This document shows, in pieces, positions 13,819 through 18,744 of a stretch of 64,000 nt of DNA (positions are counted from its first letter, which is position 1; the number at the start of each line of letters is the position of its first letter). A model generated the notes under the pieces. The model was not told where the DNA came from. It worked only from the letters and a program-made list of their open reading frames with translations, and searched no databases. A program made the position numbers and the translations under genes. Source of the DNA: Alcanivorax sp. DSM 26293 (GTDB lineage Bacteria; Pseudomonadota; Gammaproteobacteria; Pseudomonadales; Alcanivoracaceae); NCBI RefSeq assembly GCF_900107995.1, contig NZ_FNUM01000008.1:124001-188000 (forward strand), read 5' to 3'.

Positions 13819-14970
13819 ATGAACACAGACAGAGATCACCTGCTCACCGCCATCGCCGGCGCCTTCAGTCTGGTGATTGCCCTGGGCATTGGCCGCTTCC
13901 TGTTCACCCCGGCCCTGCCCGACATGATCGCCGAGACCTCCCTCACCGCCATCAGCGGCGGCTACCTGGCGGCCATCAACTACGGCGGCTACCTGGCCGG
14001 TGCCATGCTCGCCATGGCAGTACCCGCCCACCGGGCCCGCACCGCGTTCTGGCTGGCCCTGTGGGCAAGTGTCATCACCAGCCTGCTCATGGGCCTGAGC
14101 ACCACCTTCACCCCCTGGGCCATCAACCGCTTTCTGGCCGGGGTGGCCAGCGCCATCATCATGGTCAACGGTTCCGCCCTGGTGCTGGGCGCCATGCCCA
14201 ATCATCTGCGTGCCCGGCTGGGCAATATTCACTATGCGGGCATCGGCCTGGGCATCAGCATCGCCGCCCTCACCGTTGCCCTTATAGAAAGCCTGCGCGG
14301 CAGCTACGCCACCATGTGGCTGGCCTGCGGCGCCCTGGCCCTGGTCCTGCTGCCACTGCTACGCCGTATCCCCGCCCTGCCCCACGCCAAACACAGCCAG
14401 CACGAACGGGCGCCGGTGAACCGCTCCGCCCTGGGCTTTCTGATCGCCAGCTATACCCTGGCCGGGTTCGGCTACATCACCAGCACCACCTACCTGCCGG
14501 TAATCGCCAAAGCCCAACTACCGGGCCTGGACAGTGCCGCCTTCTATACCTGGCTGGCCGTGGGCCTGGCCGCCGTGCCCGCCAACCTGCTGTGGGGCAA
14601 ACTGGCCAGCCACACCAGCGAACGCAACGCGCTTATGGCCGCACTGGTGGTTCAGGCCCTGGGCGTCAGCGCCCCCGCCTGGTTACCGGGGCTCACCGGG
14701 CTGGTCGTCAGCGGCCTGCTGGTGGGCGGCACCTTCACCGCCGTGGTCGCCCTGAGCATGTACTGCGGCCGCCAGCTGGCCCCCCACGCCGCCAGCGCCG
14801 CCCTGGGAGCGCTAACGGCCTGCTATGGGGTCGGGCAGATACTGGGGCCGGTGGTGACAGCGCGGTTGCTGGAAAGTAGCGGGAGTTTTTCGCCCGGGTT
14901 GCTGGGGGCGGCGGCGGCGTTGATCGGGGCGGCGGTGTTGTTGGTGCCGTTGGGGAAGGTGCGGTTTTAG
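13819..14970 (+). CDS. YbfB/YjiJ-family MFS transporter
   Basis: A 383-residue major facilitator with about 12 helices. The N-terminus (LLTAIAGAFSLVIALGIGRFLFTPALPDM) and the run GGYLAAINYGGYLAGA are typical of the YbfB/YjiJ family, whose substrates are mostly unknown. Start Met 13819 places the first helix directly after a short cytosolic leader. The gene is divergent from nasF and its 3' end overlaps the convergent small membrane protein gene by 4 bases. Nothing in the sequence ties it to nitrate. Confidence 0.85.
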   Translation: MNTDRDHLLTAIAGAFSLVIALGIGRFLFTPALPDMIAETSLTAISGGYLAAINYGGYLAGAMLAMAVPAHRARTAFWLALWASVITSLLMGLSTTFTPWAINRFLAGVASAIIMVNGSALVLGAMPNHLRARLGNIHYAGIGLGISIAALTVALIESLRGSYATMWLACGALALVLLPLLRRIPALPHAKHSQHERAPVNRSALGFLIASYTLAGFGYITSTTYLPVIAKAQLPGLDSAAFYTWLAVGLAAVPANLLWGKLASHTSERNALMAALVVQALGVSAPAWLPGLTGLVVSGLLVGGTFTAVVALSMYCGRQLAPHAASAALGALTACYGVGQILGPVVTARLLESSGSFSPGLLGAAAALIGAAVLLVPLGKVRF

Positions 14971-15365
14971 AGCCGGTTCACTGCCTGCTGGCGTACCAGC
15001 AACGGCATGGCCGCAAACAGCAGCAAAGAAAAGAGATAGGCCATACCAGATACCGGGTCGCGTCCGGCCAGATACTCGCCCAGGCTCTGTCCTTGAAACC
15101 GCATCACCGCCAATTCGGCACTGAGCATCATCAACAGGGCCGGCAGGCCAGTGCCCATACACTGCATCACCGTCACCAACTTAAATCGCTGCACCAGCCA
15201 GCGGGCCACCAGAAAACTGGCCAGCATCATAAAAGGCAATTCAACCAGCTCAGCCCAGCGCTCCCCAAGTCGCGGCACCAGAAAGGGAATGCGGATCATG
15301 GCCAGGGCAAAGCCTGTGGCGAAGATCAGGATAAAGTAGACGAGAGCAGGTTTTATCAGTCGCAT
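14967..15365 (-). CDS. Small hypothetical membrane protein
   Basis: A 132-residue protein with about four hydrophobic helices (roughly 8-30, 42-60, 66-86 and 108-125). Charged residues between helices (RLGERWAELVELP, RWLVQRFK) are typical of a small integral inner-membrane protein. I do not recognise the family. It converges with the MFS gene with a 4-base overlap. Codon use matches the GC-rich neighbours, so it belongs to the host backbone rather than the AT-rich island that begins just upstream of it. Confidence 0.65.
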   Translation of the reverse strand: MRLIKPALVYFILIFATGFALAMIRIPFLVPRLGERWAELVELPFMMLASFLVARWLVQRFKLVTVMQCMGTGLPALLMMLSAELAVMRFQGQSLGEYLAGRDPVSGMAYLFSLLLFAAMPLLVRQQAVNRL

Positions 15366-15466
15366 TTGGAATACGGATTATGCTTTGCCTTACCGCCAGC
15401 GTAACGGGCCGGTTTGGAGCGTCAGCGGAAATCCGATCCCGTTGACGCACTTGTTCAAAGAGGCTA

Positions 15467-17260
15467 TCACCTTCCGAGGATCTTGAGGATTTCCTCAAAT
15501 CGGGCGCGAGAGCGTTGCAGGACTTCCTCGAAAGACCAAAGGTACAGCCCCGCTTTACTTTGCTTTTCTCTGACTGACAAAACTGAAGGATCGTATTCCC
15601 TTCCGATCACATATGTTTCAAAACTGATATTTGGTCGGTGGCGCGTTATCAAACCTTCGTATTCGAGGGCCTGAGTTATATGTTCCATCTTTATTTTTTC
15701 TTTTGGACGCTTAAACTCTATAATAACTGCATTACTTCCAGAATCCCTAGACCTACATATAAGGTCGGGTCTTAGTTCTTTGCGTTCTTCATATATCTTA
15801 TCAATCTTCCCATCGAGCAATGTCTTTAGCGGCTTATCTGATGACCAAAGCTCAAGACCCTCTTGAATTAACCATAAATTTGATTCAACGAGTTTGTGAA
15901 GGTCTATTTCATAAGCCTTATCTGAAGCGACCAATTCTTCTAAACGCTCGATTATTTTTATTTGTGTATCTACTATCCCTGCCACGCTGTTTAATTGGGT
16001 AAGGCCCCACTGGCTTACAAGGTCAGCCAACCTTTCAGCTTCATGCATATCTGCCGAAGCTATCGCATGCATTAGTTCCTTCAAAACATTAGACTCGTAG
16101 TATCTTAAAACCCACTCCACCAATTTTGTGGCATCGTCATCTGAGGCTGTTTTAAGTTTTCTGATAAGCTCTTTAACGACTGCAGAAGCTGTGCTCCTTA
16201 TGTGGGCAGGTAAAGCATCTAGCCGATCCTTTATCTCAGGCTGCTCCATCAGGATATCTGTTCGTTTCTTGGTTTCCTTTTCGTCGACACCTTGAATTAC
16301 TTTTTTTATGAACTCTTTCGCCCAATCATTAAATCTCTTTACCAATTCTGAGTCTTCAAGAAAACCATCCCTCGAAGTCTTTATAAGATCGTGTCTCTCA
16401 CCTGATTGTCCTTCAGGATCCAAAAATTCGGCATTAATCTCTCCGACAACTTTCTCTGCAGTAAAGAAACCGTGAGTTCGTGTATCTAGCCCAAACAATG
16501 ACGGCTCTTGAACAATTCTTCCGCGGACTCTTACCGCTAACCCAGGATTATTTTGCCGTTTATTTGCAATCACATAAAAACCGGTTACTTGACCCACCCC
16601 TTCTACATCTTGCGAAAAATCACTACGCTCACCATGCACGTCTTCCGCTGTGCATTCGACGCCATTGACGGTAATTGTGAAATCTTTCGCGGCAGGCATC
16701 ACCCTGTGAATATGGCGCCTAACCACATCTTCAGCGGGAAGCTGTAGGCCACTATGCAGTTGCAATAATTCTATGACGGTTCCGTTATCTTTCTTTGTAT
16801 CAACAGTTGTAATATCAAATTCGTGAGTAGAAAGTTCAGATATGTCTTCAAGGTCACTCTTATCTATAGTAATCGTAAACTGTTTGCCGTCTTTTCTTGT
16901 GCTGAGCTTTATCCGGGATGCAATACCGAAACCGGCTAGTTTTCCTATGCCTTTGCTGCCGATGATAAGCCGACCGCCAGCGCTCCGATCTCCACCCTCT
17001 CTTCGATCACGCCCAATATGCAAAAACTTTTCTTTTAATTGTGTTGCATCCATGCCCGAGCCATCATCTTCAATGACAATTAGTGCATTTTCATCAATGA
17101 CATCTGGGATTTCGATGGACACTTTTTTAGCATCTGCATCGTATGAATTCGCAACAAGCTCAGCTAGGCACTTTTGAACACTGTTATATGCAGATATACC
17201 CAAGTGATCCAAAATCCTTGGTGAAAAGGAAAATTTTGCTTTCTGCTTATCTGAACCCAT
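15467..17260 (-). CDS. GHKL (Hsp90/MORC-like) ATPase fused to PD-(D/E)XK nuclease; candidate phage defence protein
   Basis: A 597-residue protein in two parts. The N-terminal GHKL ATPase shows the N-box E34..N38..D41 (AELVANSYDAD), G1 DDGSGM (65-70) and G2 GSKGIGK (101-107), like MutL/Hsp90/MORC ATPases. A helical linker follows (about 300-450). The C-terminal domain has D499 (RPDL), E515-F-K517 (EFKRP) and Q530ALEY534, the catalytic core and QxxxY motif of RecB/Shedu-type nucleases. The gene is visibly AT-rich with rare-codon use unlike its neighbours, and stands alone between core genes, a sign of horizontal transfer. Prokaryotic MORC-like ATPases are often linked to restriction systems (family knowledge). 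A role in anti-phage defence is inferred; I cannot match it to a named system. Confidence 0.85.
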   Translation of the reverse strand: MGSDKQKAKFSFSPRILDHLGISAYNSVQKCLAELVANSYDADAKKVSIEIPDVIDENALIVIEDDGSGMDATQLKEKFLHIGRDRREGGDRSAGGRLIIGSKGIGKLAGFGIASRIKLSTRKDGKQFTITIDKSDLEDISELSTHEFDITTVDTKKDNGTVIELLQLHSGLQLPAEDVVRRHIHRVMPAAKDFTITVNGVECTAEDVHGERSDFSQDVEGVGQVTGFYVIANKRQNNPGLAVRVRGRIVQEPSLFGLDTRTHGFFTAEKVVGEINAEFLDPEGQSGERHDLIKTSRDGFLEDSELVKRFNDWAKEFIKKVIQGVDEKETKKRTDILMEQPEIKDRLDALPAHIRSTASAVVKELIRKLKTASDDDATKLVEWVLRYYESNVLKELMHAIASADMHEAERLADLVSQWGLTQLNSVAGIVDTQIKIIERLEELVASDKAYEIDLHKLVESNLWLIQEGLELWSSDKPLKTLLDGKIDKIYEERKELRPDLICRSRDSGSNAVIIEFKRPKEKIKMEHITQALEYEGLITRHRPNISFETYVIGREYDPSVLSVREKQSKAGLYLWSFEEVLQRSRARFEEILKILGR

Positions 17261-17745
17261 TCTAATTTCCTATTGAAAAGCGTATTCAGTCGAACGATTC
17301 GACCTATCTTTTTTCGACATAATTCTTTTATGACTTTCGGGAGAAACACAGAAATTCGCAAGACCATCAGGTCTCTTATAGTAAAAACAATAACCCACCT
17401 CGTTTGACAAAACTCGAAGAAGCGGCCTATTTCCTGACTTCCCCCGATCTCACCCCGTACTGAAAACCACTCTATATCAACCGTTTAGCATTTTCTGTAA
17501 GCCATATCCTACAAAGATATGGCTCGTTCTTTTGAGCACGGCATATAGGGGATCACCGTTTGGAGAGGTATGGCCCAAAGGGTCTGAATAAACCACTGGG
17601 CCTGGTTTGCGAAGGTGTAGGGACTCGTGAAGGCACGGCAGTGACTTCAGCCCCTTCGCCTTGCGAGCAAGGCTCCAACGAGGGCTGGTGGGGGTTGAGG
17701 CGTTGAAGGGAGTGGGAGTAAGGAGCGGCTGGGGAGCCGCTGGAC
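17261..17745. other. AT-rich upstream flank of the ATPase-nuclease gene; no gene seen
   Basis: The first ~290 bases are as AT-rich as the gene and are probably part of the same transferred segment; composition returns to GC-rich near 17550. Two dyads are seen: GTCGAA/TTCGAC at 17289-17303, just before the ATPase start, and GCCATATC/GATATGGC at 17501-17523. Either could be an operator, and the second could mark the island edge. No protein or RNA gene is supported. Confidence 0.5.
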
Positions 17746-18744
17746 TCAGGGTGTGATGGTGAAGCGCATGACGCCGATGATCTGGTTGTCGGCGGTGCGC
17801 ACTTCCACTCGCCAGCGGCCTTGTGAGGGCACCGGGATATGGCGTTTGTGGGACCAGGTGCGAAAGCCGGAGTCGCGGCCGCCGTAGAGTTTGAGGGGAA
17901 TCCGGTCGATCTGCTCACCGTTCTGAAACCAGTAATGGTAAATCTCCTGTCCCAGGCCCAACGGCGCCTTGATGGCGGTGTAGGCATAGAGGCCGGCGGT
18001 GACTTCGTCGCTGGTGAAGCTTTGCCCGGTCACCAATGGCTGGCGTTGCTCGCGGTTGAAGGACAGGGCCATGGCGCGCTCTTCCAGGGACAGGGTCAGC
18101 GGTGGCACCAGGGGTGCCAGCCAGCGTGGCGCCAGGGCGATCACACAGGACACGGCCAGCAAACCCGCCCAGCGAAACCATTTTCGCGGCCCACCGAAGC
18201 GCCAGAAGCTGGGCAGCGCAAACAGGGCCGTGAGCCAGCCGGCCCAGGTGAGTGCGGAATCCGTGCTCCAGTGGAAGATCAGCGGCAGCAGTACCAGCAG
18301 GGCCACAAACAGTGCCCAGGCGTGGAAGCCGAAGTACAGGGCCCGGTGTCGTGCCAGCCAGAAGTAAAGCGGGTCGATGATGCTGACCAGGGCGGCACTG
18401 ATCACCAGGGTGGTGAAGAAGATGTATTCCGCTCCACCGGACCATTGCAGCAGCACGAACGGCAGGCTGAAGAAGAAGGCTTCCTGGTGGACGGCCTGCA
18501 GCAGCAGTTTGAGCATGCCCTGGGACATACCCTCCATAGCGGTGCCGGCCAGGCGCCGTTGCCAAAGCCCTTCGGTGAGCAGGAGCAGCCAGCTCAGTAC
18601 CAGAAAGCCGGTGAGCACCGCGGCCAGCCAGGGCTGGCGTTCCACCAGAAAGTAACTGGAAAGGCCCAGTGCAAAGCTGATCACCGCCCACAGGTGGCGG
18701 ATCTGGTAGAGCTTGTCGGTCAGGGTTTGCAGGGCGGGTGGCAA
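17746..18744 (-). CDS. DUF5924/DUF2914-type membrane protein
   Basis: A 332-residue protein with about seven helices in the first two thirds (LWAVISFALGLSSYFLV through CVIALAPRWLAPLVPPLTL) and a soluble C-terminal DUF2914-like domain (GLGQEIYHYWFQNGEQIDRIPLKLYGG...GRWRVEVRTADNQIIGVMRFTI). This combination is the DUF5924 family of proteobacteria; its function is unknown. Start is a TTG at 18744 with GGAG eight bases upstream. It stands alone between the AT-rich island and oadB. Confidence 0.82.
   Translation of the reverse strand: MPPALQTLTDKLYQIRHLWAVISFALGLSSYFLVERQPWLAAVLTGFLVLSWLLLLTEGLWQRRLAGTAMEGMSQGMLKLLLQAVHQEAFFFSLPFVLLQWSGGAEYIFFTTLVISAALVSIIDPLYFWLARHRALYFGFHAWALFVALLVLLPLIFHWSTDSALTWAGWLTALFALPSFWRFGGPRKWFRWAGLLAVSCVIALAPRWLAPLVPPLTLSLEERAMALSFNREQRQPLVTGQSFTSDEVTAGLYAYTAIKAPLGLGQEIYHYWFQNGEQIDRIPLKLYGGRDSGFRTWSHKRHIPVPSQGRWRVEVRTADNQIIGVMRFTITP

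Follow-up and report, generated by a model that had tools for sequence, protein, structure and literature searches.

The gene described here lies in a 64,000-nucleotide stretch of the genome of Alcanivorax sp. DSM 26293 (contig NZ_FNUM01000008.1, positions 124,001 to 188,000), called the window below. It encodes a 597-amino-acid (aa) protein, P0001, in which a GHKL ATPase is joined to a C-terminal PD-(D/E)XK nuclease. The gene is preceded by an AT-rich element resembling the attI/leader region of an integron, ends at a degenerate attC-like site and lies between two flanking open reading frames (ORFs) that are kept in relatives (Table 1). With a probability of about two in three, the protein is a paraMORC3-type nuclease that serves as a single-gene defence against phages, and its gene is an integron cassette. 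G000 denotes the own genome, other G numbers denote other genomes, and L numbers denote loci. The names hsdM, hsdS, Vsr, HNH, glmS and SIR2 at loci outside the window are readings of translations.

Table 1 Features of the gene and its surroundings, in window coordinates.
Feature	Position	Strand	Basis
GHKL ATPase–PD-(D/E)XK nuclease gene, paraMORC3-type, 597 aa	15467..17260	(-)	ORF list, Pfam, alignment
GHKL (HATPase_c_3) domain, residues about 26-149	16814..17185	(-)	Pfam PF13589, 82.6 bits
Nuclease part (residues 430-597): E451, D499, E515xK517, Q530, Y534	15470..15973	(-)	AlphaFold2 model, VIA
attI/leader-like element; repeat present in several copies across the genus, one of them divergent from intI	17276..17545 (about 17265-17545)	(-)	sequence comparison
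Degenerate attC-like site immediately behind the stop codon, with decayed R boxes	15388..15459	(-)	homology to array sites
Flank on the downstream side, an ORF of 132 aa that several relatives retain	14967..15365	(-)	no family match
Upstream flank, DUF5924/DUF2914 protein, conserved	17746..18744	(-)	family match and relatives

A preliminary description, made from the sequence alone, had named a 597-residue protein with intact GHKL motifs and the nuclease residues D499, E515xK517, Q530 and Y534; all of these were confirmed. HATPase_c_3 (PF13589) matched residues 26-148 with 82.6 bits against a Pfam cut-off of 25, and HATPase_c matched with 33.2 bits (cut-off 26.4). In a 90-row alignment of relatives, the GHKL residues E34, N38, D41, D65, G67, G69, G101, G104 and G106 were invariant, and K103, K107, E451, R497, D499, E515, K517 and Y534 were conserved in at least 90%. 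Q530 was conserved in 90% of a 72-row alignment (A5). The residues named earlier are right because they are conserved in these two alignments, and E451 would complete the E-D-ExK set of the nuclease.

P0001 combines intact GHKL ATP-binding motifs with a C-terminal E-D-ExK nuclease of restriction endonuclease (RE) fold. These are the marks of paraMORC3, described as proteins in which a GHKL-S5 module is followed, at the C-terminus, by an RE-fold nuclease that carries E-D-ExK (Iyer, Abhiman and Aravind 2008, PMC2292703). A stand-alone subset, chiefly from proteobacteria and bacteroidetes, was described in the same paper, so the novelty implied by the preliminary description is smaller than it suggested. 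P0001 resembles paraMORC3 in its GHKL domain, its E-D-ExK nuclease and the lack of a linked cytosine methylase, but differs in its integron-like setting and in its lineage, which is rare and separate and for which a single partner was found (L132, see below).

AlphaFold2 predicted the full-length protein (72 rows) with a mean predicted local distance difference test score (pLDDT) of 88.0 and a predicted TM score (pTM) of 0.67. The top PDB matches of the whole-chain model were a MORC2–DNA complex and MORC3, interspersed with TRAP1/Hsp90. About 350-470 columns aligned with the MORC ATPase cassettes at TM scores of 0.34-0.39 by query length, the S5 part not being delimited separately. When residues 430-597 were modelled separately, pLDDT was 91.2 and pTM 0.87. 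Comparison of this domain with VIA, where rows up to one Z unit apart count as tied, put the nuclease domain of Bacillus cereus Shedu at the top (8ti9_C; Z 12.6, 141 residues aligned, root-mean-square deviation 3.0), followed by E. coli SduA (EcSduA, 8ps4_A; Z 11.9) and EndoMS (5gke_A; Z 11.9). The modelled domain is closest to Shedu nucleases in a tie with EndoMS; because EndoMS sits within one Z unit, a Shedu fold is favoured but not proven. Foldseek gave EndoMS alone at E ≤ 0.001 and no Shedu chain among the 50 rows listed. A sequence search of solved structures with P0001 returned nothing significant (best E 0.083).

The composition of the gene sets it apart from its surroundings. It has a guanine-plus-cytosine (GC) content of 0.425, against 0.587 for the window, and a GC content at third codon positions of 0.376, against 0.70-0.86 in ten other window genes tested. 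Among 1,794-base segments of the 64 kb, 0.6% were equally AT-rich, and segments with a GC content of 0.47 or less formed a single block around the gene. The upstream element is AT-rich too (0.411), so the earlier statement that gene and upstream flank exceed their surroundings in AT content was correct. Near other copies of the element in the own genome are three runs of short accessory ORFs with GC contents of 0.38-0.48, and the gene fits this class.

Matches to P0001 were found in 2/17 genus and 6/46 family genomes by protein search, and in 27/390 order genomes with profile A1 at E 1e-20, the own genome counted. A DNA-repair or recombination enzyme of MutL- or EndoMS-like type, without a defence role, would agree with the GHKL domain and the EndoMS/NucS fold similarity. 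The patchy spread, the atypical GC content, the variable site described below and the restriction or mobile genes that adjoin several relatives argue against such an enzyme, which we consider very improbable.

The insertion site is variable across the genus. The DUF5924 flank occurs in 16 of the 17 genus genomes, own included (G009 gave a weak match only), and the other side, a gene of major facilitator superfamily (MFS) type or the 132-aa ORF, is at least partly alignable in 12/15 relatives. P0001 was found at this site in none of the 15 other flank-bearing genus genomes, a comparison that the preliminary description had itself proposed. The space between the flanks holds other genes there, from about 330 bases (G010) to about 7.5 kb (G012). 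The horizontal gain postulated earlier is upheld for the gene, which is present here in 1/16 flank-bearing genus genomes and has an atypical GC content. It does not extend to the AT-rich flank of ~290 bases, which lies outside the acquired segment and has a separate origin, because it is a repeat shared with relatives without the gene and one copy lies beside an integrase.

Seven of 20 cargo ORFs at the site had a PADLOC match at E 0.001, as did one of ten backbone genes (an ABC ATPase). Cargo matches were AbiTii and Dsr1 (G012), PDC-S02 (G004), PDC-S31 and PDC-S55 (G001), a patatin effector (G013) and a weak mREase_II (G003). The Dsr1-like ORF (L026:7181-10333) scored 1,725 bits with a match starting at profile position 345; its start may be absent or the ORF broken.

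Sequence aligning with the upstream element at 84-89% stands at the corresponding position in G010, G001, G016, G004 and G003, and G012 keeps half of the element at 92%. These relatives carry other cargo, and in the best cases the similarity ends 12-19 bases before the start codon of the window gene. At the gene joint, the bases of the window element differ from those of other copies. Within the own genome there were seven matches at six places (elsewhere at C12:2040, C13:100490, C17:109584, C22:214252 and C15:75966, given as contig and position), two of them spanning only element positions of about 31-86. The element was present in 16/17 genus genomes; a second element query matched 15/16 genus genomes and 0/29 family genomes outside the genus. 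Copies inspected by eye adjoin runs of short ORFs. Downstream of an element fragment in the own genome lies an ORF that is SIR2-like by eye (L220:534-1325), and in G003 one copy (L232:3812-4078) lies just downstream of an ORF reading as glmS.

One own-genome copy (C13:100490-100650), corresponding to element positions 109-270, lies about 200 bases from a 332-aa integrase ORF and is divergent to it. This ORF, the integron integrase of the own genome (L217:4295-5293), scored 388 bits with TIGR02249, for which the cut-off is 265. The same arrangement was seen in G005 and G015, and G007 and G011 have the element beside intI for its last ~50 bases only. Integrases above the TIGR02249 cut-off were found in 13/17 genus genomes, eight of which had no element match listed beside the integrase. 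The element looks like an attI/leader site because one copy lies beside the integron integrase; we read positions 109-270 as a putative attI and the 5′ part as a putative leader, perhaps with a promoter role. Changes on both sides were seen in 0/30 RNA pairs predicted in the element, so there is no case for a structured RNA.

The attC-like site behind the stop codon matched an inter-ORF site in the array behind another own-genome element copy (62/75 columns, E 5.6e-13) and an inter-ORF site about 6 kb from intI in G002 (49/62, E 5.1e-7). The two matched sites share the end GCGTTA, and the first of them starts with GTTTAAC; the window site reads TTTGAAC and GGCGGTA, and its R boxes were therefore judged decayed. 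When 1,000 pieces were drawn at random from the window, one equalled the 3′ end in its match to the hotspot loci. An attC profile, R1, was trained on 24 of 32 candidates with the window excluded, and it was sequence-only because the attC alignment yielded no consensus base pair. At E 0.001, R1 found 34 sites in 24 chosen loci, 10 of them outside the training set; two more sites turned up near intI in G002, where a third had E 0.0079. In relatives' cargo at the position of the window gene, R1 detected attC in 4/7 loci searched (L026, L030, L037 and L038), of which only L030 had given no training site.

A cassette is the simplest account of the locus because it brings together the attI-like leader, the attC remnant, the foreign composition, the cassettes at the same place in relatives and the presence of an integrase. 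The gene sits behind an attI-like element and ends in a decayed attC, which makes capture by the integron integrase of the genus, followed by fixation, probable. Directly behind the element, the gene would occupy the position where the best cassette transcription is expected. As for the protein, two chains would close on DNA like a clamp by means of their GHKL-S5 modules in the ATP-bound state, a behaviour known from MORC, MutL and Hsp90 ATPases. A feature of the invading DNA, such as its ends or topology, would set the state of this clamp, and that state would license the C-terminal PD-(D/E)XK domain to cut the DNA.

Single-gene defence is the likeliest role because VcSduA, which has the same architecture, has been tested and shown to act against phages; by this analogy, the stand-alone defence gene proposed in the preliminary description gains support. 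VcSduA (GHKL plus DUF4263) protects against T1-like phages, and replacing either the glutamate of its GHKL domain (E27A) or the lysine of its nuclease (K557A) abolishes protection (Adams et al. 2025, PMC12137116). The same paper names it Shedu type I-D, notes its earlier annotation as paraMORC3 and models it as a dimer with a clamp-like middle domain. Compared by description, VcSduA and P0001 are both single genes with an N-terminal GHKL ATPase and a C-terminal PD-(D/E)XK nuclease, and E34 and K517 of P0001 would be the equivalents of E27 and K557. They differ in that VcSduA is found on VSP-II (Vibrio seventh pandemic island II) and P0001 stays below the Pfam SduA_C threshold. For E. coli SduA, an N-terminal clamp on DNA ends and nicking at a fixed distance have been described (2026 review, PMC12904381).

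Several results weigh against a cassette-borne defence nuclease of this kind. With SduA_C (Shedu, DUF4263), the C-terminus scored 14.1 bits, below the Pfam cut-off of 27. The profile search advised in the preliminary description was thus negative, and from the Shedu-like nuclease proposed there the fold can be retained, in its tie with EndoMS, but not the Shedu label. A promoter scan of the element on the gene strand found no consensus promoter. Canonical R″ and R′ boxes are absent from the window attC-like site, and R1 found no site in the window even at E 10. It was equally without a match in L217 and in 8.6 kb flanking the own intI on its cassette side (L237); the primary array of the own genome therefore seems to be empty or to escape recognition. 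The PADLOC contrast between cargo and backbone was not significant (one-sided Fisher test by hand, about 0.15), and defence enrichment of the cargo is therefore suggestive only. Finally, the nearest relative of P0001, L132, has a methylase match 1.5 kb downstream, with HNH- and Vsr-like ORFs in between.

The decayed attC boxes would fit ordinary recombination at a chromosomal hotspot, to which the attI-like repeat and the attC-like end would be incidental. So would the lack of R1 sites beside the own intI and in the same-site cargo of L028, L029 and L040. This alternative concerns the route of acquisition and overlaps the functional readings. We hold it to be unlikely, since five genomes, the own among them, have a copy of the element next to intI, and since R1 matched same-site cargo of relatives, though L026, L037 and L038 also supplied training sites. 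The rarity with which random window pieces equalled the 3′ end in matching hotspot loci also speaks against it.

The methylase match near L132 bears on another alternative, a BbrUII/HgiDII-type restriction enzyme that is now an orphan. P0001 would then be an ATP-dependent, sequence-specific type II enzyme whose cytosine methylase was lost or is unlinked. Its best NCBIfam match was indeed NF050001, the BbrUII/HgiDII restriction enzyme (228.3 bits), and its best PADLOC model was REase_II (94.9 bits). P0001 shares the GHKL N-terminus and a similar layout with these enzymes, but its score is far under the NF050001 cut-off of 550 and no cytosine methylase is adjacent. A search of the own genome with PF00145 found a cytosine methylase on contig C7 only; adenine methylases were not searched for. 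This sole gene found (L185:6188-7723) lies near an ORF reading as a phage-type integrase.

The trees can be cited on both sides. P0001 paired with L132 only, a protein from an Actinomycetota metagenome-assembled genome with 36-38% identity, with supports of 99 and 100 in a FastTree tree of 106 rows and an unrooted mixture-model tree of 49 chosen rows; VcSduA was in neither. In the FastTree tree, the pair fell outside the stand-alone clade (57 rows) and its branching was unresolved. The mixture-model tree has a branch with support 98 that parts the pair from 22 methylase-side rows, which counts against a restriction enzyme, and one with support 97 that parts it from 25 rows including the stand-alone clade, which counts in favour. 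On these trees, the pair is positioned between the stand-alone clade and the methylase-linked forms. Because L132 has a methylase match nearby, the P0001 lineage may once have had a restriction-modification role; for P0001 itself, we rate the restriction enzyme as rather improbable. Profile A3 (P0001 and L132) matched 1/369 class and 5/398 phylum genomes, own counted, the two best new proteins being 29-30% identical. Tree placement and the few A3 matches point to P0001 and L132 as a rare third lineage within the genomes searched.

Methylase linkage was surveyed among the relatives of P0001. A methylase profile trained on genes of L003 and L051-L057 matched 30 of 128 loci (L003, L027 and L042-L167, many with short flanks), none of which falls in the stand-alone clade. 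Among the plasmid and phage records examined, three loci have no annotated cytosine methylase beside them, namely L046 and L047 (586 aa) and L050, which is broken; on L048 and L049, which lack annotation, the profile had no match. The remaining eight plasmid or phage loci (L003 and L051-L057, about 580-750 aa) have a cytosine methylase adjacent or two genes off. SduA_C at E 0.1 matched 6/6 stand-alone-type proteins of A1, P0001 counted (best 2.5e-6), and 0/9 A2 proteins. Viral contigs searched with P0001 gave seven pattern matches and no relative. With A3 they gave nine loci, of which L172, L173, L174 and L176 were checked, with a methylase match in 4/4. In E. coli phage PhiR44_1 (L003:5968-7926), an annotated ParaMORC3 gene adjoins a Dcm gene, among genes with phage P2 names. 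A second GHKL-nuclease of the genus, with 27% identity, was seen in G001 (L027:6179-7924) at a different place, beside ORFs reading as hsdM and hsdS.

Anti-phage cassettes are known from chromosomal and mobile integrons, where cassette-borne defence genes are reduced in size (review PMC12409362, which cites Darracq 2025 and Kieffer 2025 for defence genes as cassettes). According to this review, defence systems of more than two genes were absent from integron cassettes. P0001 would resemble these cases as a defence gene in a cassette, but its attI-like element is at a distance from intI. Copies of attachment sites outside the integron platform have been described as delta-attI-type cassettes in mobile integrons (PMC12901181), and as attG sites and clusters of attC sites lacking integron integrases (CALINs; PMC12444791). 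Among the open-access papers listed on the subject, none was seen to report several attI-like elements in one chromosome, which is weak evidence of novelty; one of them (PMC10127599) uses the term attI-like.

A wider interpretation is tentatively put forward. The integron of the genus may be distributed, with one integrase and several scattered attI/leader elements serving as landing pads and expression platforms. In part, these pads would serve as dispersed posts for single-gene defence, here with a rare third lineage of ATP-gated GHKL nuclease in a cassette of ~1.9 kb. The idea rests on sequence similarity and on the position beside intI in five genomes. If true, it suggests that several attI-like sites of one chromosome can capture cassettes, giving more than one first-position cassette. 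It would also join GHKL-gated Shedu-like nucleases with integrons as defence-gene stores, both recently described themes.

An Rfam scan of the window gave one tRNA and nothing else. The side of the gene that carries the 132-aa ORF also has an MFS-type ORF, with sub-threshold NCBIfam matches.

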